NCBI RefSeq assembly: GCF_004193775.1
Contig: NC_041020.1
Span: 10,547,198-10,611,197 of the forward strand
Direction: 5' to 3'
From: Glycine soja
Taxonomy: Eukaryota > Streptophyta > Magnoliopsida > Fabales > Fabaceae
Length of the DNA stretch: 64,000 bases
Positions 4,526 through 64,000 of the stretch are shown one piece after another. The position numbers were made by a program, and so were the translations under genes. The first letter of the stretch is position 1. The number at the start of each line of letters is the position of its first letter. A model generated the notes under the pieces. The model made no database searches. It was not told the DNA's origin and worked only from the letters and a program-made list of their open reading frames with translations.

Positions 4526-4603
<78 letters not shown>

Positions 4604-4810
4604 CCCAAACACGCACTAATGTTTAACCGAATACATGAATATTAATATAGTAGTTTAGTAATGTATGTATGTATGTATGTATTTGTGAAATTCAAATTTA
4701 CTATGATTTTCATAAGCAAAATAGTGGAGTTTTCATAAAAGAAAGAAAAAGAATTTAATTTCTTGAGTTATTAGAGTGGTGATATCATAGCGACGAGGCG
4801 AGTCGTTACA
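2394..4810 (+). repeat. Truncated 3' LTR of gypsy family A
   Basis: The sequence aligns with the solo LTR at 37222-40064 from about its base 97, so the first 96 bases, the polypurine tract and the rest of the internal region are lost in one junction at 2393/2394. It holds an array of GCTAAGC-like near-palindromes (2604-2802), the TATA box 'gttataaatac' near 2814, the tandem units (about 4022-4370), and a deletion of several hundred bases after 'tactagggg' (about 4420) relative to the other two LTR copies. It ends TCGTTACA at 4810. Confidence 0.85.
4469..4660. repeat. Perfect 192-bp palindrome centred on (AT)36
   Basis: The arm 4469-4528 (60 bases) is repeated without any mismatch as its reverse complement at 4601-4660. 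The 72 bases between are pure (AT)n, itself self-complementary. The corresponding place in the first LTR (about 955-1065) has one copy of the arm and an AT run but no inverted copy. The palindrome therefore arose in this LTR, probably by fold-back or template switch at the AT run, and recently, since the arms are identical. Confidence 0.95.
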
Positions 4811-5395
4811 ACTTTTGCCATGAATGCTTCAGAAAATGAAGTCTTGAAGGTGTGAGTCGCACAAACATACTCTAAGCTCCTTTTCTTTTCTCTTAAAAGT
4901 GAGAACACAAGGTGGTTATTTATTGAGAAAATAGTTATAACTTCCTGTAATCGATTAAATCACCAATGTAATTGATTATTTCGAAGACGTAATCAATTAG
5001 ATTATCATTTTAATCGATTAAAATGCTCTTCCCAACACATAGAAAGCTTTCAAGAACAATGTAATTGATTAGATTCTTAATGTAATCAATTAAAGTGTTA
5101 TTGATCACTTCAAGGAATACTTTCAAGAATGAAGTAATCGATTACAATCACCTGGTAATCGATTAAACCAAAGACTCATGAAAAACCAGACATGGTCTCA
5201 ACCGAACGATGTAATCGATTACGGATAACTGGTAATCGATTAAACCAAAACTAGAATCTCTCTGCAGGCTACAAACAAGTTGTGTAATTGAATAGGAATA
5301 GCTTGGTAATTGATTAAAACATAGAGTTTTATGCACTGAAGAAGTTTCTAATTTTAGAAACAATCTTCCTACCTCTACATGATGATGTATGATGT
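4811..5395 (+). promoter_or_regulatory. LTR-like remnant with six paired AATCGATT palindromes
   Basis: No reading frame is credible here. Twelve copies of TAATCGATTA or close variants (TAATTGATTA, TAATCAATTA) lie at centres 4952.5/4973.5, 4994.5/5015.5, 5066.5/5087.5, 5139.5/5160.5, 5216.5/5237.5 and 5289.5/5311.5. The first five pairs are exactly 21 bp apart and the last is 22. The place, just before a copia gag, suggests the remains of a 5' LTR, but I see no clean LTR end or primer site, and it does not resemble the 3' LTR remnant at 21720. Confidence 0.6.
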
Positions 5396-40316: not shown

Positions 40317-41718
40317 CGGCAAGTGCACCGGATCGCGCAAGTAATATAAAACGGTAAGAACCGAGTATCGAACTCTTGGGGAACTTATGTTACTTGGTAA
40401 AGCTATATTCAGTGAATAGGTGTCTAGTATGAAAAGAGATATGTCAACTATGAAGAGGTAGATAAACTAACTATTAAAAGGAAAATCACATGAGTAATGA
40501 TGTGTAAAGACAAGTAGATAACACGTTGGTCTTCCTATTAGGTGCCTGATGTTAAAAGGATATTCTCTACTTAATAATGCTCATGTGTTCTATGGTGTCT
40601 CCTGAAATGCTAAACCCCGATTCCTCATGATAGTCTAGCCTAATCCAGATCAAGCATTGTCCTCAAATTCCTCTTGTTGGACTAAACTCGACCAGAACTG
40701 CATTAAGACAAACATACAAACAACTAGGTTACCATACCCCGATCCCTCGTGATAATACGATAAACTAGCCTTGTCCTATCAAGTTCTAAGAATCGGACCG
40801 GTTTTCACTGTTGAATGATCCTAACAAAGCATGCATCTACGTGATCAAGGAAAAAGCACACTGAAATGACGTACTGATAGCACAGAGAACAAATAAAACA
40901 TCATTAAATAGATATACAAGTATTTACATCAAGTACCTACAAGGAAGAACCAATAGAGGATTTAGCTCTCCATATCTGGGAAGCTTCCTTTACAACAAAG
41001 AGAAGAGAAAAATGAAGGATTGAAGAAATACAAGTAATGGGGATGTCTCCTACACCTCTAGAACCTCACAATCACTCATAGACTCATCTCATGCTCTCAA
41101 GATGACTTCCTTTTCTCGCTCAGTTCTCTGCCAGTCTTCTCACAGCAAAAGCTCTCAAAACTCTCTGGAACTTGGACCTTTCTCTCTCTAGAAATCTCTA
41201 AACATGAAAAAGCTTCGAGAATTTCCAAACTCTCTCTCCATTTCTGATTTCAGGCTTAAATAGGTGGCCTTATTGGTGCTTGTGTGCTTAGCGCAACTCT
41301 GGCTCGCTTAGCGTGCATTAGTGAATTTCGACTTAGTGCGCGTCTTTTCGCTCAGTGGATGGACTCAAGCGGTGCGCTTAGCGGGATTAGCCCTTGCTTA
41401 GCAAACATGAATAACTCATCCTTCTTCCATATTCTTCCTCGCGCTCAGCCAAAGGAGTGTTGCGCTCAGCAGATGGCTCGCTAAGCCAACAAATTGGCTT
41501 AGCGAGCGGATGAAAATCAACACTTCACAAACTTGCCTAATTAACCTGAAATTGAGAGGAAATGATTATTATACACACAAAATGGGAATACTAGGTATTT
41601 ATTACCTACGTTTAACAAAAATTAATTACAACATTACAAAATAACCATAAATTGGAGGAGTTTGATACAATTTACACAGGTTTTATACACAAAAGTTAGT
41701 CGTATTCATCGACTAACA
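40317..41718 (-). mobile_element. Solo LTR (family E), TSD ctata
   Basis: This 1402-bp insert has the exact 5-bp duplication ctata (40312-40316 and 41719-41723). On the minus strand it starts TGTTAGTCG and ends ...GAACA. A minus-strand TATA-type CCTATTTAAGCC lies at about 41244-41264, and upstream of it GCTTAGC/GCTCAGC near-palindromes span about 41286-41503. A UA-free, AGAGAG-rich leader follows. It splits the mobile-domain pseudogene. No coding capacity. Confidence 0.92.
41286..41503 (-). promoter_or_regulatory. U3 near-palindrome array of family E LTR
   Basis: Centres 41289/41309, 41334/41353, 41379/41399 and 41446/41467 give pairs 20, 19, 20 and 21 bp apart, and two more sites lie at 41483 and 41500. 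The core GCTTAGC resembles that of family A although the LTRs are otherwise unrelated and lie in opposite orientation. Confidence 0.7.
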
Positions 41719-46006: not shown

Positions 46007-46264
46007 TGATGCGTAAAATATGTAAGCCTCACACAAGGACAAGTGTATCCTACATAGTAGTAACAATTGACTCGAAATTCCAGATATTGAACCCAAAGGA
46101 AGATTTGAGTGATGATAACAGTGACTAGGGGTTATGATTCACTAGTACCAATTTTCCCCAATCCCAATGAAATTCCTTCTCTAATTATTTACTGATTCCC
46201 AAAATCAACCAAAGCCTATGATTAGGATCAAAGGATGTTCTTTGCCTTAAACCAATACCCTAAT
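46007..46264 (-). repeat. LTR of the minus-strand gypsy element, first part
   Basis: It begins TGATGCGTAAAAT on plus, that is it ends ...GCATCA on minus next to the primer site. Cut at 46264 by the solo LTR 46265-57735, it resumes at 57741. Non-coding. Confidence 0.6.
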
Positions 46265-47092
46265 TGTTGGATCGAGTGACCTCAGAATAATTAAGAGGGG
46301 GGGGGTTGAATTAATTATTCCTAAACCTTTACTAATTAAAAATTACTCTTTTAAGGCTTTTACTAAATTGTTAAGAGAATGAGGAGTAGAAGAGAAAACT
46401 TAACAGAAAGTAAAAGCGGAAATTAAATGCATAGCAGAAAGTAAAAGCGTAAGGAAGAAGGAAACAAACACATAAAATTTTTATACTGGTTCGGCAACAA
46501 CCCGTGCCTACATCCAGTCCCCAAGCGACCTGCGATCCTTGAGATTTCTTTCAACCTTGTAAAAAAACCTTTTACAAGCAAAGATCCACAAGGGATGTAC
46601 CCTCCCTTGTTCTCTTTGAACCTAGTCGATGTACCCTCCACTAGAACTGATCCACAAGAGATGTACCCTCTCTTGTTCTCAGTCAAACCCAAGTAGATGT
46701 ACCCTCTACTTGTACCACAAAGGATGTATCCTCCAATGTGTTAAGACAAAGATCTCAGGTTGTTAAACCTTTGATACTTTGTGAATGGGGATACAAAAGA
46801 ATTCTCAGGCGGTTAGTCCTTTGAACACTTTTGTATTAGGGAATGGGAAGAATCAAAAGAATTCTCAGACTGTGTCGTTTTGAATTCTTTGACAAGGGAG
46901 AAGGGAGACACAAAAGAATTCAGGCGGTTAGTCCTTCATTCTTTTGGAAAAGGGAGAAGAGAGACACAAAAAGAATTAAGGCGGTTAGTCCTTGGCGAAT
47001 TCTTTTTGGAAAAGGGAGAAGAGAATGAAAAGATGAATAGCACAAGTTTTCAAGGTTTGGAAAACTAGAAAACTTCAGAAAGCTTTTGGTAC
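46265..47092 (-). mobile_element. Solo LTR of family B, right part (minus), TSD ctaat
   Basis: This is the reverse complement of the LTR at 58430-60091. The two halves (46265-47092 and 56889-57735) together make about 1.67 kb, the full LTR length. The target duplication ctaat is exact (46260-46264, 57736-57740), so this was a solo LTR before the SIRE1-like element inserted into it at 47093. It contains the stem-loop block with loop GGGTACA (complement TGTACCC, about 46580-46740) and the 'ggcggttagtcc' repeats (about 46800-47010). Confidence 0.92.
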
Positions 47093-48239
47093 TGAAATTC
47101 TGATACCAGGGGACAGATGTCGTACAGGATGTCACGACATCACGCTTCAGAACATGCAGTTTATATGTGTCTGTATGAACAGATTAAACAAGTAAATAAC
47201 ACAAGAGAATTGTTAACCCAGTTCGGTGCAACCTCACCTACATCTGGGGGCTACCAAGCCAGGGAGGAAATCCACTCTCAATAGTGTTAGTTCAAGGTCT
47301 AACAGCCCCTGTTTACAACCTTCTCACCTAACCACTACCCGTGCGATCTCTACCTAAGAGCCACTCTTAGATATGAGAACCTCTGCTCACTCCCTCTCAC
47401 TCACACTCCCGTGTTTACAATTAAGTCAAAGACACACCAGAGATCAACTCTGAACAAAAGAGATCAACTCTACACACTAGAGATCAACTCTAGACACAAG
47501 AGATCAACTCTACACACATAGGTCCAACACTTGATGCTAAGGTACCATCAAGGTGGCTCACAAAAGACTCAAGTCCCAAAACTCACAAAATAACTCTTCA
47601 ATCCCGGACTTGGTACAGAACTCGTGCAGCCTCCATGATTATATAGCCGTGTACGATTCTGGGCTGCAACTCCTTGATGCTGGAGGAGATCTATCTTCTT
47701 CTGAAAAATCTGCAGTTAAAGAACTAAAAGATAACTTTTGATCTTTTAGTTTGAATCTTTAATCTTTAATCTTTAATCCCTGAACGAACTCTTCTACTTT
47801 GAAATTCGAACTTTAATGATCTTTTAATTCGTTCCTAAAGATAGATCTTCTAATCTCTTGCTAACTGCACAATAATCTGTTAAAGATATAACAAATTTAT
47901 ATGTCCAGTATTATCGGGCCGGATGTCAGGACATCGTGTCCGACATCGTGGATCCTGCAGCTTCACTTCTGCACTTGACTTTTATCTTGCATTGTACAGC
48001 AATTCCAGTATTCTCGGGCAGGATGTCAGGACATTGTATCCGACATCGTGGATCCTGCAACTTCACTTCTGCACTTGACTTTTTATCTTGCCTTGTGCAT
48101 TGTGCAGCCCGATCTCATTCCTTGACATAACGTTGGACATCATGTGCAACAACTCCAGCTTTCCTTCATTGTCTAAGTGCTTATGTTTTAACAAAATCTT
48201 AGCCAATCTTTTAAAGCTCAGTAGAGCTAAACACTAACA
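47093..48239 (-). repeat. 3' LTR of the SIRE1-like element
   Basis: It holds three 26-bp GATGTC/GACATC modules (47116-47141, 47922-47947, 48022-48047) and four copies of AGAGATCAACTCT at exactly 20-bp steps (47441-47510). Frames 47553-47741 and 47936-48130 are chance frames repeated in the other LTR. Confidence 0.97.
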
Positions 48240-48254
48240 ATCTCCCCCTTTGGC
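48240..48254 (-). other. Polypurine tract of the SIRE1-like element
   Basis: On the minus strand CCAAAGGGGGAGAT abuts the 3' LTR (its TG at 48239). It primes plus-strand synthesis. Between it and the envelope-like ORF (48255-48877) lies the 3' untranslated part with two of the 26-bp modules and further purine runs (complement of 'ctccccctg', 'ctcccccttt'). Confidence 0.9.
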
Positions 48255-48877
48255 AAATTTTGTCTAAAACATACTTAGACACTTCCTGAGCAGGTACGAG
48301 CAGTTATGCAAGTAGGATCAGCAACTTCCATTATCAGAGTAATCAAGCACAGCGGAAATTCTTCAAGTTGCAAATCTACAAGTCTTCTCCAGAATGTCAA
48401 GACATCTCTCGTGACATCAGCTTTCTGCTTCTGCTCCCCCTGTCTCCATGCTTACTGCAGCATCTTCTATCAGCTACTAGTCTTTTCCAGGATGTCGAGA
48501 CATCTCATGTGACATCCGCTATCTGCTCCCCCTGTCTTCATGCTCTTACTGCAGCATCTTCTAGTAGCTTACAACAGTCATCATCAGCAGCAGTCTCCCC
48601 CTCAAAATCATATTCATACAACTCCCCCTCAAGATCGTGAATCATGCATACATCGTATCCTACTATCCTACTGCCATACATCATACATTCAACATAATCA
48701 TGCATAATAGCAAGCATAATACTATTACTCCCCCTTTTTAGACATAAATTTGGCAAAAGTAGGATGCATGAAATTAATGTGCGAATATTACAGACCCATA
48801 GTAACCAATTGTTCAAAGGGACATGCCCCTTTAACTAATAACAGTAAAAGCAAAAACAAAACATAAAGGTCTGATGA

Positions 48878-50947
48878 TCATGGGGTGGCTTCAGAATCAT
48901 CATCTGATTCTGTCTCTTCTGCTGCATCTTCCTCTTCCTCAGCAGCTTCTTCTTCTTCCTCGGCTGCTTCTTCCTCTTCTTCTTCAGCAGCTTCTTCTTC
49001 TACTTCAGCTGCTTCACCATCTTCCTCAGCTGCTTCACCATCAATGCCACTTTCTGAGAGCCTTTTGATCAGCCGTTCCAGCTCCATCTTCTTCTCTGTG
49101 TTGGCTTTGATGGTTGCTTCCAGCACCTTGCATGTGTCCTTGAGTTCTGCAATCAAGGCATCCTTGGACACAGCACCTGAAGCAGCTTTCCCTGATGTCG
49201 AGACAATGTCTGGGACATGTGTCCCCTCAAACAGTTTGTAATGCAGGGATAGAGGAGATTCTCTCTTTATCACAGAGTCAGTGTAGTTTAACATATTGGG
49301 ATGCTGACTCAACATAATGCCACACAATACAGTAGGGAAGGCAATGGGTAATTTGACAGCAAATGATTCTGAATGCTTAACAGTTTGATCAAAAATATAG
49401 TTTCCAAAATTAAATTTGGACTTGGTTCCAACAGCATACAGAAATTTACCCAAACCTGTGGCAACAGTAGAAGTATGATTGGTGGGAACCCAGTTTGCAG
49501 CTCCAATCCTGTGCAGAATTGCATACTTCACACTTAGCTTCCCTGCTGAAAGCTTCCCTTTCTTTGGCCAATGCTGGACTCGTTTGGCAGTGATTTCCTT
49601 GGCAATTTGATGCTCAGAAACATCAATATCTATCACTCCATCAGTAGGTCTGCCCAGATATTTGTTGATCACAGCAGGGGTGAATCTAACACACTTTCCT
49701 CTGACAAACACTCTTTGATAATCATCACTTTTTCTGTTTGATATGTCAGAGGGAATGTTGACAATGAATTCCCTGACTAGGCCTTCATAACAGTCTCCCA
49801 ACTTGGTGACTGTCTTCAGTAGTCCAGCAGCCTTGATGAGGTCCATGATCTCCTTGCAATCCAAGGCAGTTCTTCCCAGTTCTCTTTCCAAGGCAAGTCT
49901 GCGTTGATACACGAATTTCCACCTTTCTGCATTGCCAATGGAGTGGAATGAGATGTTGTCCAATGGGGCATCAGGGACATTTTCAGGCACCTTCTTCCCA
50001 GATTTCTTGACCCTCTTAGATGTCGAGACATCTAGTTCGACATCCTCATCAGAATCGGATGAGGAAATTTCTTTCCTCTTCTTGGAGGGGATAGCAACCT
50101 TGCTTCTTCTGGATGTGGTAGGAGTGATTGGAGTGCTCTTCTTCTGGGCCATAGTTTTGATTCGTCCAGACCTCTTGATGGGAGTTTTCCCTTTTCGGCT
50201 TTGTAATCGTTCTGCAACGCCAGGTGCCAACCTGTTGGCAATGGGTTCCTCATCAGATTCTACTTCTTCCAGGTCAATGAGGTCACCTGGAGCAGGTTCT
50301 GGTGCCCTTGGTGCAGGGGTCTCCTTTGTCGCTTGATCATCTTCCTCTGTTGATCTCTCTTTGCTGGGGGAAGAGAGTACTTCAGCATTTGGCCCGGAAG
50401 ATGTTGGAACATCTTTCTCAACATCCGGCACAGAAACATTCGGGGTGGAAGATGTTGGAACATCTTTCTCAGCATCAGGCACAGAAGCATCTTTCAGAAT
50501 GCTACTCACAATACTGCGGATTTTCTTGTCCATCTCCGGGTCTACTTCCCTAGGACTTGTTGCAGAGCTAGGGTTTTCAGCAATCTTCACTCCCTGTTGT
50601 CTTCTGGGAACCAGTTTCTCAGGGACTGAAGCTTGACCAGGAATTATCTGTATGGGTTGGATGTTGAATTCTGGTTGTTCCTGGTGCGGAGATGATGGTA
50701 CAGCGGGTGAACCAGGAGCTGCAGTTTCTTTTGGTGAGGTAGCCATGGAAAAGCAGAGCGTTTGGAATGATTTCGTAAATCTCAGAAAACTATTGGGAAA
50801 TGCTGGAGAAAACACGAATGCCAAGCAGATATAAATTTGAATGAAGAATGTAGAGGGGCGTGTGAAGCAACGGTCGAATTTGCTTTGTGGTGAACGTGCT
50901 ATTAATGTTAAGTGATTCGTTTGGGCACGTTCAGATTGCAGTAGCTG
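48878..50947 (-). CDS. Envelope-like ORF of the SIRE1-like element (read-through)
   Basis: The frame is open for 689 codons after the gag-pol UAG and in the same frame. The first in-frame TTG is at 50824 and the first ATG at 50744-50746, so expression most likely needs UAG read-through. From the TTG: a hydrophobic N-terminus (residues 1-27, AFVFSPAFPNSFL), a Pro/Ser/Thr-rich part with repeated DVEKDVPTS words (about 100-160), and a basic linker. A folded domain follows (about 295-545, WKFVYQRRLALERELG ... NKYLGRPTDG ... KLPIAFPTVLCGIM) of the kind annotated as a putative plant transposon protein. The tail is a coiled coil (about 550-600) and an acidic Ala/Glu repeat with DSEATP at the end. 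In SIRE1 it was called envelope-like from layout, and an entry role is unproven. Confidence 0.85.
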   Translation of the reverse strand, partial: QLLQSERAQTNHLTLIARSPQSKFDRCFTRPSTFFIQIYICLAFVFSPAFPNSFLRFTKSFQTLCFSMATSPKETAAPGSPAVPSSPHQEQPEFNIQPIQIIPGQASVPEKLVPRRQQGVKIAENPSSATSPREVDPEMDKKIRSIVSSILKDASVPDAEKDVPTSSTPNVSVPDVEKDVPTSSGPNAEVLSSPSKERSTEEDDQATKETPAPRAPEPAPGDLIDLEEVESDEEPIANRLAPGVAERLQSRKGKTPIKRSGRIKTMAQKKSTPITPTTSRRSKVAIPSKKRKEISSSDSDEDVELDVSTSKRVKKSGKKVPENVPDAPLDNISFHSIGNAERWKFVYQRRLALERELGRTALDCKEIMDLIKAAGLLKTVTKLGDCYEGLVREFIVNIPSDISNRKSDDYQRVFVRGKCVRFTPAVINKYLGRPTDGVIDIDVSEHQIAKEITAKRVQHWPKKGKLSAGKLSVKYAILHRIGAANWVPTNHTSTVATGLGKFLYAVGTKSKFNFGNYIFDQTVKHSESFAVKLPIAFPTVLCGIMLSQHPNMLNYTDSVIKRESPLSLHYKLFEGTHVPDIVSTSGKAASGAVSKDALIAELKDTCKVLEATIKANTEKKMELERLIKRLSESGIDGEAAEEDGEAAEVEEEAAEEEEEEAAEEEEEAAEEEEDAAEETESDDDSEATP

Positions 50948-50950
50948 CTA
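50942..50950 (-). promoter_or_regulatory. Leaky UAG stop context between gag-pol and envelope-like ORF
   Basis: On the minus strand the stop reads UAG CAG CUA, fitting the UAG-CAR-YYA rule first defined in tobamoviruses and reported to work for SIRE1. No other stop lies between it and the end of the envelope-like ORF, so a small share of ribosomes would make a fusion. Confidence 0.85.
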
Positions 50951-53900
50951 TAATTCCTCTAGCAGACAAATGCCCAGCTTGCCCCTCAGTTTTTCAAACT
51001 GATTTGCATCCAAAGCCTTTGTGAAAATATCTGCTATTTGTTCCTCAGTGTCAACATGCTTCACTGTGATCACTTTATCATCAACAAGATCTCTGATATA
51101 GTGATGTCTAATGTCAATGTGCTTGGTTCTGCTGTGTTGAACAGGATTTTTAGAAATATTAATAGCACTCATGTTGTCACAGTACAATGTCATGACATCT
51201 TGTTCGACATTGTACTCCTTCAGCATCTGCTTCATCCAAACTAGCTGTGAACAGCTGCTTCCTGCTGCAATATACTCGGCTTCTGCAGTAGATAGGGACA
51301 CACAGTTCTGCTTCTTGCTGAACCATGAAATAAGGTTGTTGCCCAGATAGAAGCATCCACCAGAAGTGCTTTTTCTGTCATCTGCACTTCCAGCCCAATC
51401 AGCATCACAATACCCAACCAGCATTGAATTTGAACAATGACAGTACATAATCCCATAGTCACTGGTGCCATTTACATATTTCAGAATTCTCTTTACTTGA
51501 GTCAAGTGACTTATCTTAGGATTGGCTTGATATCTTGCACAAACACCTACTGCATAGGTGATGTCGGGTCTGCTAGCTGTTAAATATAGTAAGCTCCCTA
51601 TCATGCTTCTGTACAGACTTTGATCAACACTGGTGCCTGCTTCATCCTTTGACAGCTTCAAGTGAGTTGGTGCAGGTGTTCTTTTATGGCCGGCATTCTC
51701 CATCCCAAACTTCTTGACAATGTTCTTTGTATACTTGCTCTGTGAGAGGAATATGGAGTCTTCCATCTGCTTCACTTGAAGTCCCAGAAAATAAGTCAGC
51801 TCTCCAACAAGACTCATCTCAAATTCAGATTGCATCTGTTGGACAAAATGTCGAAGCATCTCATTCGACATCCCTCCAAACACAATGTCATCAACATATA
51901 TCTGTGCAATCATCAAGTTTTCAGCATCTTGTTTGACAAAGAGAGTCTTGTCAATTCCTCCCTTCCTATACCCTTGCTGAGTAAGGAACTCTGTCAGCCT
52001 TTCATACCAAGCTCTTGGAGCTTGCTTCAATCCATAGAGAGCCTTCTTGAGCCTGTATACATGATCTGGATGAGTTGGGTCTACAAATCCCCTTGGCTGC
52101 TCCACATAGACTTCTTCATTCAGGTATCCATTCAGAAATGCGCTCTTCACATCCATCTGGTACAGCTTGAATTTGAGGATGCAAGCTACACCAAGTAATA
52201 ATCTGATGGACTCAAGTCTAGCAACTGGGGCAAAAGTCTCATCAAAGTCTACACCTTCAATCTGAGTGTAGCCTTGAGCAACCAGTCTGGCCTTGTTTCT
52301 GGTTATGACACCTTCTTCATTGGTTTTGTTCTTGAAGATCCACTTGGTGCCAATCACATTAGTTCCCTCGGGCCTAGGAACTAGCTCCCATACTTCATTC
52401 CTTTTGAATTGCTCCAATTCTTCTTGCATAGCATTGATCCAGAACTCATCTGTCAGTGCCTCTTTCACATTCTTGGGCTCAATTTTGGAGACAAAACATG
52501 AGTTTGAGACGATCTCAACCTCCCTTGATCTTGTAGTGACCCCTCTGTTTGGATCTCCTATAATCAGCTCCTTGGGGTGCATCTTCTGGATTCTAATGGA
52601 GGGTCTCTTGTCAGGTTGGTTGATGTTTGAATCATCTGTAGCAGGATCAGAGTTTTCTGCATTTTCTCCACTTTTAGCTGCATCTGCTACATTGTCTCCC
52701 GATGTTCTGACATCTTCTTCGACATCCTTCTTTCTTGCTGGAGACAGATCATCAACAACCACATTGATGGATTCCATCACTGTTCTGGTTCTGGAATTGA
52801 ATACTCTATATGCTCTGCTGTTTGTAGAGTATCCCAGGAATATTCCTGCATCACTCTTGGGATCCATCTTTCTCCTTTGCTCTCTATCTGTCAAGATGTA
52901 ACATGGACTTCCAAAGATGTGGAAGTGCTTGACAGATGGCTTCCTCCCTTTCCAGATTTCATACAGGGTGGTTGGAGTCCCTCTTCTCAGTGTGACTCTG
53001 TTGTGGATGTAGCATGCTGTGTTCATGGCTTCAGCCCAGAGATTATAAGGAAGTTCTTTGGCATGAAGCATGACCCTAGCAGCCTCTTGCAGAGTCCTGT
53101 TTTTCCTTTCAACTATGCCATTCTGTTGTGGTGTAATGGCTGCAGAGAACTCATGAGTGATGCCTTCAGATGTGCAGAATTCAGTGAACCTGCTGTTTTC
53201 AAATTCTCTGCCATGGTCACTCCTGATTCTCTTGATGACACAATCCTTTTCTCTTTGAAGTCTTAGACTCAACTCTTTGAATACTTCAAAGGTTTCTGAT
53301 TTCTCTCTGATAAAGTTGACCCAGGTAAATCTGGAGAAATCATCCACAACAACATAGGCATACCTCTTTCCTCCAAGGCTTTCAACTTGCATAGGCCCCA
53401 TCAAGTCCATGTGAAGTAGTTCCAACACCCTGGAAGTGGTCTGATGTTGAAGCTTCTGGTGGGACATCTTGACTCGCTTTCCAATCTGACATTCACCACA
53501 AATTCTGCCTTCTTCTATTTTCAGATTGGGAATGCCTCTAACAGCACCTTTGTCAATGATTTTCTTCATGCCTCTTAAGTGCAGATGTCCAAATCTTTGA
53601 TGCCATATTCTGACTTCATCTTCTTTGGAGGATAGACATGTGGAGGAGTAGCTGGTTTCTTGGGGTGTCCATAGGTAACAATTGTCCTTTGATCTGCTGC
53701 CCTTCATTAGAACTTCACTCTTCTCATTTGTCACCAAGCATTCTAACTTTGTGAAGTTTACATTGAACCCTTCATCACACAGCTGACTGATGCTGATCAA
53801 GTTTGCAGTCAGTCCCTTCACCAGCAGTACTTTGTTCAGACTAGGAAGTCCATCATGAGCTAGCTTTCCCATTCCAATGATCTTTCCTTTAGAGCCATCT

Positions 53901-55678
53901 CCAAATGTCACATAACTAGTGGAGCAGGGCTCAATATTCAGCAGGAATTCTTTGACTCCTGTCATGTGTCTGGAACAGCCGCTATCTAGGTACCAATCTT
54001 CCTTAGCTGATGCTCTAAGTGAAGTATGAACAACAAGACTGACAGCCTTGTGTTTTGGAACCCACATCATCTTCTTTCTGTTGTTGCTACTTTGAGTTCC
54101 ATGATGTGGATGGCCATGTAGATGATAGCAAAAGGGCTTTATGTGACCATACTTGCCACAGTAGTGACACCTCCACTTCTTTCTTTTGCTCTTTTTCTGC
54201 TGCATTCCATGATGTCGAGACCGATGTTGTGACATCGTGGCTCCAGTCCTGTTTTTGGCAGGAACAAATTCTGTCATGGTTGTTCTGCCAGCAGACTTAG
54301 GATTAAATCCAAGTCCTCTCTGGTTTCCAGCATTCTTTCCAAGCAGCAGCACCTCATTAAGCGTATCTGAGCCTTTATTCAGCATCTTTATTGATTTGGT
54401 CATGTTTTCCAATTTAGAGTTCAGAAAACCGACTTCTCCTTTAAGCTCAGAGATCTCCTCTTTATGTGCCTTCTTCTCAGCCTCCATATCTGCAATGACC
54501 TTCTTCAGTTGTGCTTCTTGCTGAAGAATCTTCTCACTTTTGATGCATAGTTCTCTATAGGATGTAGCAAGCTCATCAAAAGTGATTTCACTGTCTGTAT
54601 CACTTGAATCTTCAGCAGATTCAAATCTCCCAGTGAGTGCATTCACATCTCTGTCAGAGTCACTTTCTTGTTCACTCTCTGTATCAGATCGACATACAGA
54701 AAGTCCTTTCCTCTGCTTCTTGAGATGAGTGAGGCATTCAGCTATGATGTGTCCATAGCCTTCACACCCATGGCATTGAATTCCTTTGCTGTGACTGGGC
54801 TTTACATCTGATCTTTTCTGGTATTTACTGCCTTTCCTGATGTCGAAAGGGATGTTCTGGACATGTGGTTTCTGCCTCTTGTCCATTCTGTTCAGCACTT
54901 TGTTGAACTGCTTTCCAAGGAGCACAACTGCCTTAGTCAGACCTTCATCAGTATCCAGGTCATAATCATCTTCTTCTCCTTCATCATTGGACACGAACGC
55001 CAAGTTCTTGCTCTTCTTTTCAGCCCCATCCGAGAGTCCTAGCTCAAAGGTTTGAAGGGAACCAATGAGTTCATCCACTCTCATGTTGCAAATGTCTTGG
55101 GCCTCCTCTATTGCAGTGACTTTCATGTCAAATCTCTTAGGCAAGGATCTGAGGATCTTTCTCACCAGCTTTTCATCTGTTATCCTCTCTCCCAAGGCAG
55201 TGCAAGCATTGGCAATTTCAAGAATGTTCATGTGGAAGTCATGAATACACTCTTCCTCCTTCATCTTCAGATTTTCGAATTTTGTAGCCAAGAGTTGCAA
55301 TCTGGACATCTTAACTTTGGAGGTTCCTTCATGAGTGGTTTTCAGGATCTCCCATGCATCTTTGGCCACTGTGCAAGTGTTGATTAGTCTGAAGATATTC
55401 TTGTCAACTCCATTGAATAGAGCATTCAAAGCTTTGGAGTTTCCAAGTGCCAATTCGTCTTCTTCTTTAGTCCAGTCTTCTTCTGGCTTCAATTCATCAG
55501 TGGGCTTTCCTTCTGTGTCCAGCATCTTGGGATGTTCCCAGCCTTTGATGACAGCTTTCCAGGTTCTGCTATCCAGTGATTTGAGGAAGGCCACCATCCT
55601 TGCTTTCCAGTATTCATAGTTGGTTCCATCTAGGATTGGTGGTCTGTTCACTGGTCCTCCTTCTTTCTCCATGTTCAT
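50948..55678 (-). CDS. Gag-pol polyprotein of the SIRE1-like element
   Basis: It has 1576 codons, intact. Gag carries the DUF4219/UBN2 capsid ([16 protein letters not shown] near residue 13), a first zinc knuckle [14 protein letters not shown] (302-315) and a second [14 protein letters not shown] (504-517). Two knuckles are a Sirevirus trait. The protease has D565-S-G. Integrase has the HHCC zinc part (about 690-735) and D758, D821, E857 with 35 residues between the last two, the D,D-35-E rule. RT carries the YVDD box at 1261-1264. RNase H starts at [18 protein letters not shown] (about 1410), and the C-terminus is [13 protein letters not shown]...IFTKALD. All catalytic residues I can check are present. 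The start follows the primer site by about 40 bases. Confidence 0.97.
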
Positions 55679-55720
55679 CAGAATTTATCTCCCCAGATCT
55701 CACTCTGTGATTTCGAGTGT

Positions 55721-55734
55721 TGGCTCTGATACCA
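55721..55734 (-). other. Primer binding site of the SIRE1-like element
   Basis: On the minus strand TGGTATCAGAGCCA lies two bases inside the 5' LTR end (55737). It is the exact complement of the 3' end of plant initiator tRNA-Met. Confidence 0.95.
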
Positions 55735-55736
55735 AG

Positions 55737-56883
55737 TGAAATTCTGATACCAGGGGACAGATGTCGTACAGGATGTCACGACATCACGCTTCAGAACATG
55801 CAGTTTATATGTGTCTGTATGAACAGATTAAACAAGTAAATAACACAAGAGAATTGTTAACCCAGTTCGGTGCAACCTCACCTACATCTGGGGGCTACCA
55901 AGCCAGGGAGGAAATCCACTCTCAATAGTGTTAGTTCAAGGTCTAACAGCCCCTGTTTACAACCTTCTCACCTAACCACTACCCGTGCGATCTCTACCTA
56001 AGAGCCACTCTTAGATATGAGAACCTCTGCTCACTCCCTCTCACTCACACTCCCGTGTTTACAATTAAGTCAAAGACACACCAGAGATCAACTCTGAACA
56101 AAAGAGATCAACTCTACACACTAGAGATCAACTCTAGACACAAGAGATCAACTCTACACACATAGGTCCAACACTTGATGCTAAGGTACCATCAAGGTGG
56201 CTCACAAAAGACTCAAGTCCCAAAACTCACAAAATAACTCTTCAATCCCGGACTTGGTACAGAACTCGTGCAGCCTCCATGATTATATAGCCGTGTACGA
56301 TTCTGGGCTGCAACTCCTTGATGCTGGAGGAGATCTATCTTCTTCTGAAAAATCTGCAGTTAAAGAACTAAAAGATAACTTTTGATCTTTTAGTTTGAAT
56401 CTTTAATCTTTAATCTTTAATCCCTGAACGAACTCTTCTACTTTGAAATTCGAACTTTAATGATCTTTTAATTCGTTCCTAAAGATAGATCTTCTAATCT
56501 CTTGCTAACTGCACAATAATCTGTTAAAGATATAACAGATTTATATGTCCAGTATTATCGGGCCGGATGTCAGGACATCGTGTCCGACATCGTGGATCCT
56601 GCAGCTTCACTTCTGCACTTGACTTTTATCTTGCATTGTACAGCAATTCCAGTATTCTCGGGCAGGATGTCAGGACATTGTATCCGACATCGTGGATCCT
56701 GCAACTTCACTTCTGCACTTGACTTTTTATCTTGCCTTGTGCATTGTGCAGCCCGATCTCATTCCTTGACATAACGTTGGACATCATGTGCAGCAACTCC
56801 AGCTTTCCTTCATTGTCTAAGTGCTTATGTTTTAACAAAATCTTAGCCAATCTTTTAAAGCTCAGTAGAGCTAAACACTAACA
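55737..56883 (-). repeat. 5' LTR of the SIRE1-like element
   Basis: 1147 bp, colinear with 47093-48239 (constant offset 8644), with two transitions only. It carries the same three GATGTC/GACATC modules (55760-55785, 56566-56591, 56666-56691). Confidence 0.97.
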
Positions 56884-56888
56884 GGTAC

Positions 56889-57735
56889 AAAGAAGAAGAA
56901 GAAGTTCAAAGAGATTTAGGGCTTGTAAAAGATTGATTGAATAAGTGTTAAAGATTCTTTTTTTAAATGCAAAACAAAGCCTTGCTTTTATAGACTCTTC
57001 ATGTCTGGTCAAGACAACCATTGGAAGAGTTATGTCTTTTAGAAAAACTTAAAAACCAATTTGAAAAAGTCAAAAACCTTTTTGAAGAGTTACATCTTTT
57101 GATTTATTCAGAAACAATCACTGGTAATCGATTACCAAATTAGTGTAATCGATTACACAAGGCTTTTAAGTGAAAGGATGTGACTCTTCACATTTGAATT
57201 TGAATTTCAACGTTCAAGGGCACTGGTAATCGATTACAAAAACATTGTAATCGATTACAGCCTTTTGAAAATAATTGGAACGTTGTAAATTCAGTTTGAA
57301 AACTTTTTCAAACTCATTTTGCTACTGGTAATCGATTACAACAATATGGTAATCGATTACCAGAGAGTACAAACTCTTTGGTAAAAGGTTTTGTCAAAAA
57401 CTCATGTGCTATTCATAGTTTTGAAAAACTTTTTAATACTTATCTTGATTGAGTCTTTTCTTTATTCTTGAATCTTGATCTTGATTCTTGAGATCTTGAA
57501 CCTTGAATCTTGATTCTTGATTCTAGGCTTTCTTCTTGAGTCTTGAATTCTTCTTGATTCTTTTCTTGAACTCTTGACTTGTTCTTGATTCACTTGAGAT
57601 GTTCTTTGATTCACTTGAGTTGTTCTTTGATCTTTGAGCTTTTTTATCATCACCTTTGTCATCATCTTTTGTTGTCATCATTGTTATCACCAAAACACCT
57701 TTGAATCACATTCACCATGAAGCCTTGCTTCTACA
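56889..57735 (-). mobile_element. Solo LTR of family B, left part (minus)
   Basis: This continues 46265-47092 after the SIRE1-like insertion; the end GCTTCTACA at 57735 is followed by the duplication ctaat. It carries the U3 palindrome pairs TGGTAATCGATTACCA/GTGTAATCGATTACAC at centres 57129.5/57150.5, 57231.5/57252.5 and 57333.5/57354.5 (each 21 bp apart, 102 bp from pair to pair), and a stretch of 'cttgattcttga' repeats near 57460-57600. Confidence 0.92.
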
Positions 57736-57740
57736 CTAAT

Positions 57741-58429
57741 GATCATGGGTCTATCAATTTAAGTCAAAAGATATAATCAATCCTAGGGATGATCAATTAA
57801 AAATTAACTAATCTATCAGAGATTACTCAAACAATTTGTTCATGCAATTTAGTGTAAACTATTCTCTACCTAGACCTAGCAATCACATGCAGATGATCAC
57901 TACTATGCAATCAATTAAGTATTAGAATGATTGATTCCAAATAAACAATAAAGATAAGGAAGATAATTAATTAACATTAAACAATAAAGAATTCCATTAA
58001 GAACAAGGAGAAAGGTACAATTGGATAGTTACATCATAAACCCAGACTAGGGGAACTAGCCGCCTATGATCATAGAAAAACTAGCCATCCTATACAAAAT
58101 AGACATAGACATACCAATAAGGCAGGAACTATGATCACAACCCATTTTCACAGTGTTGTCCATGCTTCATAGCCCTCAAAAGCCCTTAAGGTTCTATCAA
58201 ATTTGTAAAAAGATAACCGTGAAACGAAGACTTTTTTATGAATTATAGAGACCTGTATATAGCTTCCTAAAGATATCAGTTTGAGAAGGTGTACTACGGT
58301 CGTGGTAAAATCTACCATGGCTGTGGTCGGAAGTGATGTTGAAGCTTTGTGGCATTTTGGATTGACTATGACCCTCATGGTTGACCACAACCCTCATGAA
58401 TTGACCACGGTTGTGGTGAATTTACCATG
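57741..58429 (-). repeat. LTR of the minus-strand gypsy element, second part
   Basis: It continues 46007-46264. A minus-strand TATA box (AGCTATATACAGG, about 58252-58262) is preceded by ACCACGGTTGTGGT-like near-palindromes (58293-58417), two of them exactly 21 bp apart. It is cut at 58429 by the next element, whose likely duplicated target is ccatg (58425-58429), the right copy being outside the window. No gene. Confidence 0.65.
58293..58417 (-). promoter_or_regulatory. U3 near-palindrome array of the minus-strand gypsy LTR
   Basis: ACTACGGTCGTGGT (centre 58299.5) and ACCATGGCTGTGGT (58320.5) are 21 bp apart. Weaker copies lie near 58371.5 and 58390.5, and a perfect-looking one is at 58410.5, about 20 bp further. 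The next copy would centre at about 58430.5, exactly where the following element inserted. Confidence 0.65.
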
Positions 58430-58793
58430 TGTAGAAGCAAAGCTTCATGGTGAATCAAGAGTGATTCAAAGATATTTTGATGATAACAAAGATGATAACA
58501 AAAGATGATGACAAAGGTGATGACAAAAAGCTCAAAGGAAAATCAAAGAATGAGTTCAAGATGTTCAAGATAGAATCAAGAACACTTTAAGATTCAAGAG
58601 GAAAGTTGAATTCAAGAATCAAGAATTAAGATTCAAGAGATCAAGATTCAAGACTCAAGATTCAAGAATCAAGAAAAGGCTATTCAAGAATCAAGAAAAA
58701 GCATAATCAAGATAAGTATGAAAAGGTTTTTTCAAAAACTGAGTAGCACATGGATTTTTCTCAAAACATGTTTACTAAAGAGTTTTTTGCTCT

Positions 58794-59034
58794 CTGGTAA
58801 TCGATTACCAGATTGTTGTAATCGATTACCAGTAGCAAAATGGATTTGAAAAAGTTTTCAACTGAATTTACAACGTTCCAATTAATTTCAAAAAGCTGTA
58901 ATCGATTACAATGTTTTGGTAATCGATTACCAGTGCCTTTGAACATTGAAATTCAAATTCAAATGTGAAGAGTCACATCCTTTCACATAAAAGCCTTGTG
59001 TAATCGATTACACTGATTTGGTAATCGATTACCA
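58794..59034 (+). promoter_or_regulatory. U3 array of three palindrome pairs (family B)
   Basis: The six palindromes are: CTGGTAATCGATTACCAG (58794-58811), GTAATCGATTAC (58818-58829), TGTAATCGATTACA (58897-58910), TGGTAATCGATTACCA (58917-58932), GTGTAATCGATTACAC (58998-59013) and TGGTAATCGATTACCA (59019-59034). Centres within pairs are exactly 21 bp apart, and pairs are 101-102 bp apart. The same geometry is in the solo LTR and the 3' LTR (63928.5/63949.5). TATA box about 125 bp downstream. Confidence 0.95.
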
Positions 59035-59617
59035 GTAATTGTTTCTGAATAAATCAAAAGATGTAACTCTTCAAAAGGTTTTTGACTTTTTCAAATTGGT
59101 TTTAAGTTTTTCTAAAAGTTATAACTCTTCTAAATGGTCCTCTTGGCCAGACATAAAGAGTCTATAAAAGCAAGGCTTTGATTTGCTTTTCAACATACTT
59201 TTCCAATCAATCTTACACAATCCTTTACAAGCCTTGAATCTCTTTGAACTTCTTCTTCTTCTTTGTGCCAAAAGCTTTCCAAAGTTTTCTGGTTTTCTAA
59301 ACCTTGAAAACTTGTGCTATTCATCTTTTCCATTCTCTTCTCCCTTTGCCAAAAAGAATTCGCCAAGGACTAACCGCCTGAATTCTTTTTGTGTCTCTCT
59401 TCTCCCTTTTCCAAAAGAACAAAGGACTAACCGCTTGAATTCTTTTGTGTCTCCCTTCTCCCTTGTCAAAGAATTCAAAACGACACCGTCTGAGAATTCT
59501 TTTGATTCTTCCATTTCCCTTATACAAAAGTATTCAAAGGACTAACCGCCTGAGAATTCTTTTGTATCCCCATTCACAAAGTATCAAAGGTTTAACCGCC
59601 TGAGATCTTTCTCTTAA

Positions 59618-59772
59618 CACATTGGAAGGTACATCCTTTGTGGTACAAGTATAGGGTACATCTACTTGGGTTGTTGATTGAGAACAAGAGAGGGTACATC
59701 TCTTGTGAATCAGTTCTAGTGAAGGGTACATCCACTAGGTTCAAAGAGAACAAGGGAGGGTACATCCCTTGT
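59618..59772 (+). promoter_or_regulatory. Five tandem stem-loops with invariant loop GGGTACA
   Basis: Stems are as follows. 59618-59642: CACA..GGA/TCC..TGTG, loop AGGTACA, two mismatches. 59646-59668: CAAGTA/TACTTG, extended to 8 bp in the solo LTR copy. 59684-59706: ACAAGAGA/TCTCTTGT. 59716-59738: CTAGTG/CACTAG. 59750-59772: ACAAGGGA/TCCCTTGT. The loop is constant while the stems differ yet stay paired. The block lies downstream of the TATA box and so in the transcript leader (and in the 3' end through the other LTR). Confidence 0.85.
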
Positions 59773-60093
59773 GGATCTTTGCTTGTAAAAGGATTTTTAC
59801 AAGGTTGAAAGAAATCTCAAGGACCGCAGGTCACTTGGGGACTGGATGTAGGCACGGGTTGTTGCCGAACCAGTATAAAAACTCTTGTGTGTTTGTCTCC
59901 TTCTTCCCTACTCTTTTAATTTCCGCTGTGCATTTAATTTCCGCTTTTACTTTCTGTTAAGTTTCTCTTCTACTCCTTATTCTCTTAACAACTTAGTAAA
60001 AGCCTTAGAAAAGTAATTTTTAATTAGTAAAGGTTTAGGAATAATTAATTCAACCCCCTTCTTAATTATTCTGAGGCCACTCGATCCAACAAG

Positions 60094-60141: not shown

Positions 60142-61227
60142 ATGGCCTCTTCAAATCCCTTGTTTCCTGAAGGAAATTCCATTCACAGACCACCCATTTT
60201 CAATGGTGAGGGTTACCGTTATTGGAAAACTCGTATGGAGATATTAATTGAAGCCATAGATCTAAATATTTGGGAAACAATAGAAATAGGACCACACATA
60301 CCCACTATAGTAGATGTAAGCACTACAACCCAAAAACCTAGAGATAAGTGGACAAAAGAAGATAGGAGAAGAATCCAGTATGATCTCAAAGCCAAAAACA
60401 TCATCACTTCAACCCTAGGAATAGATGAGTACTTTATAGTGTCAAATTGTACTAATGCCAAGGAGATGTGGGATACTCTCCAATTATCCCATGAAGGAAC
60501 CACAAACGTAAAAAGGTCTAGAATCAATACCCTTACCCATGAATATGAATTATTTAGGATGAACCCAAATGAAAACATTCATAGTTTGCAAAAAAGATTT
60601 ACACATATAGTAAACCACCTTGCATCTTTAGGAAAAATCTTTCCTAATGAAGATTTGATTAATAAAGTTTTAAGATGTTTAAGTAGGGAATGGCAGCCCA
60701 AGGTAACTGCTATTTCTGAAAGTAAAGACCTCTCTTCCATGTCTCTTGCCACTTTATTTGGTAAATTGCAGGAACACGAGATGGAACTTCAACGCCTTAA
60801 TCAGAATGAAGAAAATGACAAAAAGAAGAGAAGTATAGCCCTTAAAGCCTCATCATCAGTACAAGAAGAAAATGAAGAAGAAGACTCAGATGATGAAGAA
60901 GATTTTTCTTTCTTTGTTAAGAAATTTCAAAAATTCATCAAGATAAGAAGAATTGACAGGCGTCAGAATTTCAATAATGGAAGAAAATCACAAGATGATT
61001 CTCAAGTTCTTAGGTGTTACAAATGCAACCAAATTGGTCACATCAAGGCCAATTGTCCTTCAAATGAAGAATGGTCAGAGAAAAGTGAGAAGAAAAGATT
61101 TGATGAAAGAAGAACTAAGAAAGCCTACATTGCATGGGATGACAATGATTCATCCGATGGTTCAGAAAAGGAGATTAATCTTTTAACCAAAGATTATGAA
61201 AGTGATGAGAACATCTCTCAAGAATGA
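60142..61227 (+). CDS. Copia-type Gag of the family B element
   Basis: 361 codons, intact. It has a DUF4219/UBN2 capsid: HRPPIFNGEGYRYWKTRM (residues about 14-31), AKEMWDTLQLSHEGTTNVKRSRI (about 107-129), then RINTLTHEYELFRMNPNENI. An acidic stretch (EENEEEDSDDEEDFSFF, about 246-262) precedes the single zinc knuckle CYKCNQIGHIKANC (about 294-307), and the tail is charged. It is similar in layout to the Gag part of the SIRE1-like polyprotein but ends with a stop instead of running into protease. Intact Gag with no pol suggests it still serves the element's packaging. Confidence 0.92.
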   Translation: MASSNPLFPEGNSIHRPPIFNGEGYRYWKTRMEILIEAIDLNIWETIEIGPHIPTIVDVSTTTQKPRDKWTKEDRRRIQYDLKAKNIITSTLGIDEYFIVSNCTNAKEMWDTLQLSHEGTTNVKRSRINTLTHEYELFRMNPNENIHSLQKRFTHIVNHLASLGKIFPNEDLINKVLRCLSREWQPKVTAISESKDLSSMSLATLFGKLQEHEMELQRLNQNEENDKKKRSIALKASSSVQEENEEEDSDDEEDFSFFVKKFQKFIKIRRIDRRQNFNNGRKSQDDSQVLRCYKCNQIGHIKANCPSNEEWSEKSEKKRFDERRTKKAYIAWDDNDSSDGSEKEINLLTKDYESDENISQE

Positions 61228-61992
61228 AAAACAAGGAGAAAAAGCATGATCCTCATCTTTGAAGATGTATACACTTTAATCTTGAAAAAGGTAATATCAA
61301 AACCATTATCTTATTAAAATTTCTCTTAAGTTGAAATTTTTATTCAAACATTTTGATTATGATGACTATCAACTCCTTATTTGTTTGTTTTTTATTGTTT
61401 GGAATCATGAGTATGTGTTCTTGATTGATTTCATCCTATTTGCATGAAATATTCATTCATATATTTAAATAAAATCAATATTCTTCATACTTATGTTTTG
61501 ATTTTTTTTAAAAAATTGATTATCTACATGTTTTGATGTTTTTGCATGATATGATATGTGAATTACATGATTGAGAATTATTCATAAATTTTTTTTAATA
61601 TATTTATCTTTAAAAAGTATTTTGATAATTACTCAAAATTTCTTTTCTCCTAGAAAGTCTTAGTTTTTGTTTTCTGGCTAAAATAACCTCTGGTAATCGA
61701 TTACCATAATGGTGTAATCGATTACAAGCAGTTATTTCTGGCTATGTTGCTCTATGGTAATCGATTACCATATTTGTGTAATTGATTACAATGTGTCCCT
61801 GCACCTATATACTCAGATTTCAAATTCTGAAACCTGCAATTCTTCTCTCTCTCGAAAATCCTCTCCCCCAAATTTTCCTCTAGCCATATCTCACTCAATT
61901 CTTGTCCAAATCACTCCCTACAAAGCCCAAAACTTCATCTTTTTTCACTTTCTTTCATTTGAACCGATTGAAATCTCGAAAAATCTCTTCAA
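61228..61992 (+). promoter_or_regulatory. Region between gag and ORF2, with LTR-like promoter module
   Basis: No frame is seen. At 61691-61790 are two palindrome pairs: TGGTAATCGATTACCA/TGTAATCGATTACA (centres 61698.5/61719.5) and ATGGTAATCGATTACCAT/TGTAATTGATTACA (61762.5/61783.5). Each pair is 21 bp apart, as in the LTR U3. A TATA-like 'cctatatactcag' follows at about 61804, then a pyrimidine-rich leader ('cttctctctctcg') to the ORF2 ATG. This looks like a separate promoter for ORF2. The first part (61228-61680) is AT-rich with nothing further seen. Confidence 0.65.
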
Positions 61993-63099
61993 ATGGCGGA
62001 ACCATCGAAGAAGCGAAAGGGCACTTCGAGTCGGAGTCAATGACATTCCGGGTCACAGGAAACGCCAATTCCTTCCTCCATTCCCTCTGGATCATTGTTT
62101 TCATGAGAGGAACAACGTATATGGTACACAAACCTCTTTTCCTCTCATTCCATTATAGACCAAAAATTCATAGATATGGATTTCTTCTCAAATGAGAGTT
62201 TTGAATGCTTTCAAGCATTTGAAAACTCAAATCTTATTCCATTCATGTCTCTGAAATTACCCGTTTATTTTGATCTAGTCAAAGCCTTTTATTCTAATTT
62301 AGAAATCAATGAAGGTACCCTAATGTCTAAATTTTATGGGATTAAGATGGTCATTGACCAATCCCTATTTTATGATTTAACCAAATTGCCTAGTGAAGGT
62401 GTGCCTTTTGAGGGTACAATGATTGATGATTAGAAATTCGATTTTTCTGTGCATGATGCTCGTCGGTTGGTTTGTACCAACCAAGCGGATATGACCGGAA
62501 GGCTTCTTGCCGGTTCATTGGCTTTTGAAAGCCGCATCCTCCATTACCTTATTGTTCGCATCTTGCTTCCGAGATCTTCAAACCTTGCTCAGGTTTCTGA
62601 AGAAGATCTCATTGTATTGTGGGCCTTTCATAAAGGTTTACAAATTGATTGGGCACATCTTGTTAGATATCGCATGCATAAGGCATTGCGATTGAATGCC
62701 CCATTGCCTTATCCTCATCTTGTCACCCTTTTCCTTCAACACTTCAACATTCCTCTTGATTCTAAACCTTATGTTCCAATCAAGAGATCTTTCCTTATAG
62801 GCGCTTTAGTCATAGCATCTTTTGGCTATCAAAAGGAGCATGATGGCTCTTGGGTGAAGAAAGGTACTCGACATGTTGGTGAAGAAGGACATGATGGAGA
62901 GGATTCGTCTCTCCTTTCAAAGATAATGGATAGGTTTGATTGTCTTCAAACCTTTGTTGGTGAAAGGTTTGACACTTTGGAATTACAAGTGGATATGCAC
63001 TTCAATAAAATGGAGCCAAGAATCACAAAGGTTGAAGAAGATGTGTCTTACATTCGTTCAAGCTTCGATCTTCCACCACCGCCGCCACCATCATCTTAG
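61993..63099 (+). pseudogene. ORF2 of the family B element (putative plant transposon protein domain), three nonsense changes
   Basis: One frame runs from ATG 61993 (MAEPSKKRKGTSSRSQ, a basic start) to the stop at 63097, interrupted by TGA 62041, TGA 62104 and TAG 62431. All three fit single C-to-T or G-to-A changes. The body (ECFQAFENSNLIPFMSLKL ... VYFDLVKAFYSNLEI ... ARRLVCTNQADMTGRLLAG ... SEEDLIVLWAFHKGLQIDW) is of the same kind as the folded part of Sirevirus envelope-like ORFs. It is followed by a coiled coil (LLSKIMDRFDCLQTFVGERF) and a Pro run. Its job is unknown. Confidence 0.8.
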
Positions 63100-63555: not shown

Positions 63556-64000
63556 TGTAGAAGCAAAGCTTCATGGTGAATCAAGAGTGATTCAAAGATG
63601 TTTTGATGATAACAAAGATGATAACAAAAGATGATGACAAAGGTGATGACAAAAAGCTCAAAGGACAATCAAAGAATGAGTTCAAGATGTTCAAGATAGA
63701 ATCAAGAACACTTCAAGATTCAAGAGGAAAGTTGAATTCAAGAATTAAGAATCAAGATTCAAGAGATCAAGATTCAAGAATCAAGATTCAAGAATCAAGG
63801 AAAGGCTATTCAAGAATCAAGAAAAAGCTTAATCAAGATAAGTATGAAAAGGTTTTTTCAAAAACTGAGTAGCACATGGATTTTTCTCAAAACATGTTTA
63901 CCAAAGAGTTTTTTACTCTCTGGTAATCGATTACCAGATTGTTGTAATCGATTACCAGTAGCAAAATGGATTTGAAAAAGTTTTCAACTGAATTTACAGC
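63556..64000 (+). repeat. 3' LTR of the family B element (cut by window end)
   Basis: It is colinear with 58430 onward, with a few differences in the 'caagattcaaga' repeats. It includes the first palindrome pair (63920-63955) and ends at the window border. Confidence 0.95.

Follow-up and report, generated by a model that had tools for sequence, protein, structure and literature searches.

The closest described systems are the long terminal repeats (LTRs) of Sireviruses. These carry palindromic repeated motifs (RMs) clustered upstream of the TATA box, with extra copies upstream of the ENV-like gene (Bousios et al. 2010, PMC2829016), for which an internal promoter is thought likely and none has been conclusively identified (Bousios et al., PMC2829016). 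In maize Sirevirus LTRs, where palindromes cluster as they do here, the clusters define a cis region and are discussed as targets of small RNAs and of secondary structure (PMC5311732, PMC10760457). Section 9 of PMC2829016 holds no spacing rule, the words 'helical' and 'spacing' occurring in that paper only in reference titles, and neither the passages on the subject in PMC3414828 nor a word search of PMC11656987 yielded one. We found no report of a helical lattice in the literature covered by our search, outside which most subscription papers lay, including Bousios 2016; searching by the letters of the motifs gave nothing relevant except PMC2829016.

The palindromes of family B, an LTR family in the window (the whole 64-kb stretch of DNA analysed here), resemble Sirevirus RMs, as these are described in the relevant parts of PMC2829016, in forming clusters upstream of the LTR TATA motif and in having copies before a 3' open reading frame. 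The RMs mostly have a CGG-CCG core, whereas the core found here is TAATCGATTA; a published exception is the tobacco Tnd-1 motif ACAATCGATTGT, which has the AATCGATT core in common with the present palindrome (PMC2829016). Where RMs are defined by at least eight copies per element, counted over LTR and linker together, family B has six copies of TAATCGATTA in its 5' LTR and three exact and one changed copy internally, its 3' LTR being cut by the end of the window. Palindrome arrays in Sirevirus LTRs are already known (PMC2829016); the whole-turn lattice of TAATCGATTA is wider than the pairing at 21 bp noticed in an earlier, sequence-only reading of the window.

The window contains 23 TAATCGATTA sites, 20 of which have a partner whose centre lies exactly 21 bp away. 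The sequence-only reading had listed such pairs in the family B 5' LTR (58802.5/58823.5, 58903.5/58924.5, 59005.5/59026.5), in what it took for a solo LTR, here the split minus-strand LTR (57129.5/57150.5, 57231.5/57252.5, 57333.5/57354.5) and in the 3' LTR (63928.5/63949.5), and all of these centres are exact. Three further pairs at 21 bp, absent from that list, lie at 5139.5/5160.5, 5216.5/5237.5 and 61698.5/61719.5. The sites at 4952.5, 5015.5 and 61762.5 have no exact partner, that of 61762.5 being TAATTGATTA at 61783.5, in which one base is changed. The features concerned are as follows.

58430 to 60093, plus strand: family B 5' LTR, its start taken from the match to 63556-63998 (97.7%) and its end set by eye before TGGTAT, presumably the initiator-tRNA primer site
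58793 to 59034, plus strand: family B 5' LTR array of six TAATCGATTA palindromes, steps 21/80/21/81/21
59162 to 59168, plus strand: CTATAAA, the family B 5' LTR TATA motif, lying 140 nt past the point where the last site begins
57122 to 57362, minus strand: family-B-like array of six sites in the split LTR, steps 21/81/21/81/21
63919 to 63955, plus strand: opening pair of the array in the family B 3' LTR, shortly after which the window ends
4948 to 5242, unstranded: second TAATCGATTA array, steps 63/124/21/56/21

The spacing of 21 bp amounts to two turns on a lattice of helical pitch, because TAATCGATTA spacings follow multiples of 10.2 bp. The lattice sample combines the window, 20 stretches of 10 kb hand-picked at round positions on 20 large contigs (31-58 Mb) with the motif disregarded, and 20 short C1 stretches selected for holding the motif. 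It yields 191 TAATCGATTA sites (67 from the window and hand-placed stretches, 124 motif-chosen), 37 arrays of at least two sites and 153 adjacent spacings of up to 130 bp. Of these 153 spacings, 76 are 20 or 21 bp and the rest cluster at 29/31, 50-53, 70-73, 80-81 and 91-94, with one at 101; values of 35, 43, 56, 57, 63, 68, 83, 85, 114, 123, 124 and 129 occur one to three times each. The turn numbers are mostly 2, 3, 5, 7, 8 and 9. All told, 129 of the 153 fall within 1.5 bp of n x 10.2, where 45 (29%) would be expected at random, and 24 lie off the lattice. Steps of four and six turns are nearly missing (1 and 2 of 153), a gap that pure phasing would not predict.

A slope fitted through the origin gives a repeat of 10.216 bp (bootstrap 10.167-10.267). 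Among periods of 6-16 bp, the best fit is at 10.15 with every spacing included and at 10.20 when only spacings longer than 25 bp are taken (n=77, R=0.66, phase -1 degree). With one spacing of each kind per blastn cluster the peak stands at 10.25 (R=0.47 over 37 spacings longer than 25 bp, nominal p 3e-4), a much weaker result than the raw test. The window and hand-placed stretches alone supply 53 spacings with R=0.83. Among the first C1 places listed, R is 0.75 for spacings of 41-71 bp, from 39 of 50 plus-strand entries, and 0.68 for spacings of 72-102 bp, from 48 of 55; the highest values reached in 5000 uniform draws were 0.47 and 0.40, respectively. The control from unrelated motifs is thin, a single 6-mer having at least 25 spacings (TTTGAA, R 0.28). 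A motif-free count of centre-to-centre distances has its largest peak at 20/21 across the window and the twenty 10-kb stretches (28 pairs with arms of at least 5), nearly all of it TAATCGATTA.

This palindrome geometry is real, genome-wide and strongly non-random. Across the 1.01-Gb assembly, for which repeat counts are lower bounds and the control is the motif read backward, the exact 21-bp pair TAATCGATTAC-N10-TAATCGATTA occurs at least 30,288 times on the plus strand (control 0), and TAATCGATTA pairs with centres 10-40 bp apart at least 46,511 times (control 5); at least 65% of the latter are at exactly 21 bp. Two further genome counts are at least 26,682 against 37 and at least 56,723 against 7. 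Among the first 50 plus-strand places listed at 10-40 bp, the spacing is 20 in 12, 21 in 32, 29 in one, 31 in four and 35 in one. As a separate observation, the only exact 21-bp TAATCGATTA pair found in IMG/VR is in a viral contig (L045:52-82), where it resembles operator-like direct repeats; the 260 bases read of that contig contain no plant-like sequence.

The best explanation, held here with moderate confidence, is that the palindromes are sites of a dimeric transcription factor kept in helical register. The DNA-binding protein that would occupy them as a dimer is most likely a transcription factor of the host. With centres on a 10.2-bp lattice, bound dimers would face one side of the DNA and could contact each other or a common partner. 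The basic unit would be the two-turn pair of 20/21 bp, with pairs set mostly 3, 5, 7, 8 or 9 turns apart, and the palindromes would serve as upstream activating region both for the LTR promoter and for an internal promoter that precedes the 3' open reading frame (ORF). Selection would maintain both the 12-bp site and its rotational position. We infer binding by a protein, its dimeric state and the activation of transcription by that binding. The better of the two ideas in the sequence-only reading was that two helical turns would bring two dimers onto one face of the DNA, which extends to the TAATCGATTA lattice but does not hold across all classes of palindrome. Helically phased transcription-factor sites in enhancers likewise stand at multiples of a turn; the arrays here differ in their thousands of copies, in their residence in retrotransposons and in the turn-sized changes between relatives.

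Both the sites and the length of the array are conserved between two copies. When the split minus-strand LTR is compared with the family B 5' LTR, the six 12-mers are identical (72/72 bases), and mismatches number 10/164 in the array spacers and 63/583 in the remainder. The sites differ from the rest (Fisher p 0.001), the spacers not significantly so (p 0.075), and indel events number one in the array against 29 elsewhere (Poisson 2.5e-4). The bases flanking TAATCGATTA covary at offsets 2 and 3 (0/2000 permutations each) and weakly at offset 1 (46/2000), with none detected at offsets 4-8 among 181 sites with different flanks; the covarying flanks are mostly TGG..CCA (36/181) or GTG..CAC (24/181). 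Such covariation would be expected of a symmetric dimer or of strict palindromy, and descent may contribute to it. TATA motifs lie beside several arrays. A CTATAWA is found within 500 bp outward of 23 of the 37 arrays, most often at 80/81 (six arrays), a raw, uncontrolled count on either strand that includes many short loci; by arithmetic, the distance from the family B array to its TATA motif is off the 10.2-bp phase. The palindrome clusters of plant LTRs, known but unexplained, would come under a testable rule, namely that an inserted half turn should lower activity and a whole turn should not, and the genome provides tens of thousands of natural variants.

A second reading, possible if on balance doubtful, is that the lattice would fix which way the sites face on a nucleosome, or on DNA wrapped in some other manner, exposing or hiding them together. 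The repeat fits 10.2 rather than 10.5 bp, and it is the pitch of nucleosomal DNA that makes the smaller value suggestive of wrapping. Spacers of at least 45 bp have their AAAA/TTTT tracts half a turn away from the palindrome centres (n=205, R=0.32, phase 171 degrees), while their G+C dinucleotides keep the phase of the sites (n=203, R=0.18). The tract signal persists when redundancy is reduced to 21 spacers (P 0.023) or nine (P 0.0275) and loses significance at six (P 0.28). Of the two outside flanks, the left shows it (P printed as 0.000, 2000 rotations) and the right does so without significance (P 0.215). Taken together, the phase of the A-tracts and the pitch of 10.2 hint that the DNA is bent or wrapped. 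Should it prove to be wrapped, these arrays would give plants a natural enhancer of the pioneer type, replicated many times over.

Common descent with tandem duplication could by itself leave a regular spacing, the arrays being copies of one ancestral unit, some 10.2 x n bp long, whose spacing they inherited without selection for it; we consider this rather unlikely as the whole account. Many of the arrays do share descent, to judge by their sequences. One blastn cluster takes in 26 of the 37 TAATCGATTA arrays and the effective sample is therefore small, successive spacers within an array are alike (z>3) in 10 of 31 cases, and empty lattice points are slightly more site-like than off-lattice points (3.69 against 3.10 matches of 10, with at least eight matches in 12/544 against 8/2542), a resemblance to be expected from decayed sites and from an old repeat alike. 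Against it, 21 of the 31 successive spacers show no such similarity, so that simple tandem duplication accounts for part only, and within the one cluster spacings vary from array to array by whole turns (51, 71, 81, 92 and 101 bp, for instance). Homologous spacers differ in length by 0-2, 9-11, 18-23, 29-32 or 41-43 bp in 187 of 231 pairs, a manual tally of non-independent pairs; when only the differences above 4 bp are scanned, the period that fits best is 10.85, and R at 10.2 is 0.48. In the comparison of the two LTR copies above, moreover, the array is poor in indels and its sites are poor in substitutions.

How far the geometry extends to other palindromes bears on whether it is a rule. 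The sequence-only reading had it in several unrelated families. It is sharp in the TAATCGATTA class, partial in others and no general rule: most TAATCGATTA arrays fall in the one cluster, CTCGCC palindromes are mainly 19 bp apart among the pairs listed and GCTNAGC palindromes mainly 18. The other arrays in the window are the following.

13082 to 13355, unstranded: decayed CTCGCCATAGCGAG-type sites in the 13-kb LTR, pairs 13088.5/13109.5, 13157.5/13178.5, 13225.5/13246.5 and 13327.5/13348.5
25497 to 25632, unstranded: family D CTCGCCNNGGCGAG array, steps 20/40/41/21
41286 to 41402, unstranded: GCTTAGC array, steps 20/70/20
58293 to 58417, unstranded: ACCAC-N4-GTGGT-type (ACCATGGTTGTGGT-type) array, centres 58299.5, 58320.5, 58390.5(-) and 58410.5, steps 21/70/20
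47434 to 47518, with a second copy at 56078-56162: four AGAGATCAACTCT dyads 20 bp apart with varying 7-nt spacers in a nested copia LTR, read by eye

The four pairs claimed for the 13-kb LTR, aligned by eye and then checked, are indeed exactly 21 bp apart, but most of the sites are now poor palindromes (matched arm pairs, of 7: 7, 4, 2, 4, 2, 3, 5, 5). The steps between its pairs are 48, 47 and 81 bp, of which 48 and 47 are off the 10.2-bp phase. The steps of 20, 40, 41 and 21 given for family D are right, and the ACCATGGTTGTGGT-type array has its 21 and 20 on either side of a step of 70. Genome-wide, ACCAC-N4-GTGGT gave only two pairs, both 20 bp apart, against one in the control, and we draw nothing from them. 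For the GCTTAGC cores, to which the sequence-only reading ascribed 18-21 bp, the steps are 20/70/20 and then 84/17 at 41289, but 18/51/31/31/19/24/18 at 2607. Over 11 GCTNAGC loci, 18 bp accounts for 20 of 77 adjacent spacings, with R 0.35 at 10.2; spacings of 40-70 bp in the genome listing give R 0.30 and fit a period of 9.15 best, and the backward-motif control, with zero spacings, is uninformative. Arrays of this class (2607-2799 and L055-L065) advance mainly by 18 bp, often then by 23-25 or 32, with sums near 41-43 and 50, which is a different geometry.

Pairs of CTCGCNNNNGCGAG 14-44 bp apart occur at least 2,727 times in the genome (control 0). Among 50 plus-strand CTCGCC..GGCGAG pairs listed, 41 are at 19 bp with nearly constant spacers and nine at 40/41 with diverse spacers; the 19-bp form is 1.4 bp below two turns, and this class therefore backs the lattice only in part. 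Nine CTCGCC loci chosen for the 40/41 step have steps of 40/41 (nine, by choice), 20 (one) and 62 (six). Together with family D of the window they show local matches among all of them at 66-88% identity, one diverged superfamily, and the 13-kb LTR matches none of these ten.

A broader proposal is that the code is one of geometry and not of sequence: palindromes kept in 10.2-bp rotational register, and A-tracts turned to the other side of the helix, would make an enhancer built for wrapped, nucleosome-like DNA, its dimer sites exposed on one side. We think this fairly improbable, and slightly more so than before because 19 bp prevails in 41 of the 50 CTCGCC pairs listed. If it were true, retrotransposons could swap the bound factor and keep the geometry.

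It is very unlikely that the palindromes act in the transcript as an RNA hairpin or small-RNA feature, 21 bp mirroring the 21-nt small RNA, which the sequence-only reading had offered as its alternative. Palindrome-rich LTR regions of maize are hotspots of small-RNA mapping in the passages of PMC5311732 that treat them, but the link does not predict spacings near multiples of 10.2 bp, the values 29/31, 50-53, 70-73, 80-81 and 101 fitting these and not 21, and the core palindromes have no loop.

Inside family B, a further array precedes a 3' ORF.

60142 to 61227, plus strand: family B copia-type gag ORF (PF14223, 2e-26; zinc knuckle)
61691 to 61790, plus strand: internal array, centres 61698.5, 61719.5, 61762.5 and the changed 61783.5 (TAATTGATTA), steps 21/43/21
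61805 to 61811, plus strand: CTATATA, a candidate internal promoter downstream of the internal array and ahead of the 3' ORF
62449 to 63099, plus strand: 3' ORF past the internal array (PF20167 Transposase_32, 8.3e-9, 36 bits, under the Pfam cut-off of 45)

Three other loci (L010:4701-4830, L024:5483-5634, L044:3528-3680) have an internal array with a CTATAWA 24 nt on, and in L010 and L024 it lies between copia pol and the 3' ORF; all three belong to one blastn cluster and are thus not three independent events. In L010, L024 and the window, the internal arrays with a TATA motif ahead of the 3' ORF look like internal promoters, and they offer a specific candidate route by which such elements could express their 3' ORF. 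Extra palindromes lie upstream of each 3' ORF, of which that of L024 scores above the PF20167 cut-off, that of the window below it and that of L010 has no match. Of the Ty1/copia reverse transcriptase that belongs to a Sirevirus, the Pfam family RVT_2 is present in L010 and L024; L016 has copia integrase/gag, and the family B copy gag only. The PF20167 relatives of the L024 3' ORF (L024:6108-6734), 57-60% identical over most of its length, are named from Cajanus cajan, which makes the 3' ORF older than Glycine. A structure model of the 3' ORF product, from a 29-row alignment, has a pLDDT of 50.5. Least probable of all is that this product is expressed from a palindrome promoter of its own and is what binds the palindromes, their sequence varying by family and their geometry shared: L010, L024 and the window do carry the same palindromes both in the LTR and ahead of the 3' ORF, but Pfam found no DNA-binding domain in the ORFs scanned, the structure model is too poor to use, and palindromes are also reported from ENV-less Sireviruses in the relevant parts of PMC2829016.

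A young SIRE1-like copia element (47093-56883, minus strand, LTRs 99.8% identical) is inserted in a family-B-like LTR, whose halves are 46254-47092 and 56884-57736. Its ORFs (55684-50951 and 50947-48881, minus strand) are in one frame with a single stop between them, an arrangement of gag-pol and 3' ORF like that given for soybean SIRE1 in the relevant part of PMC2829016; one piece matches RVT_2 (3.5e-76), and the 3' ORF matches PF20167. For residues 330-600 of the minus-strand protein at 48884-50947 there are 1023 matches, and the 120 of these that were listed are 90-98% identical and named from Glycine max or Glycine soja, which points to Glycine as the source. The nested element differs from the elements above in its LTR dyad, AGAGATCAACTCT at 20 bp, and in leaving no room for an internal promoter between pol and the 3' ORF. 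Elsewhere in the window, a perfect inverted repeat with 96-bp arms flanks an AT run at 4469-4660 (centre 4564.5). Outside the window, one TAATCGATTA array (L023:8552-8728) lies about 1.2 kb downstream of a Ty3/gypsy RT and RNase H and an integrase-like piece, identified by eye, and is a candidate member of that element.
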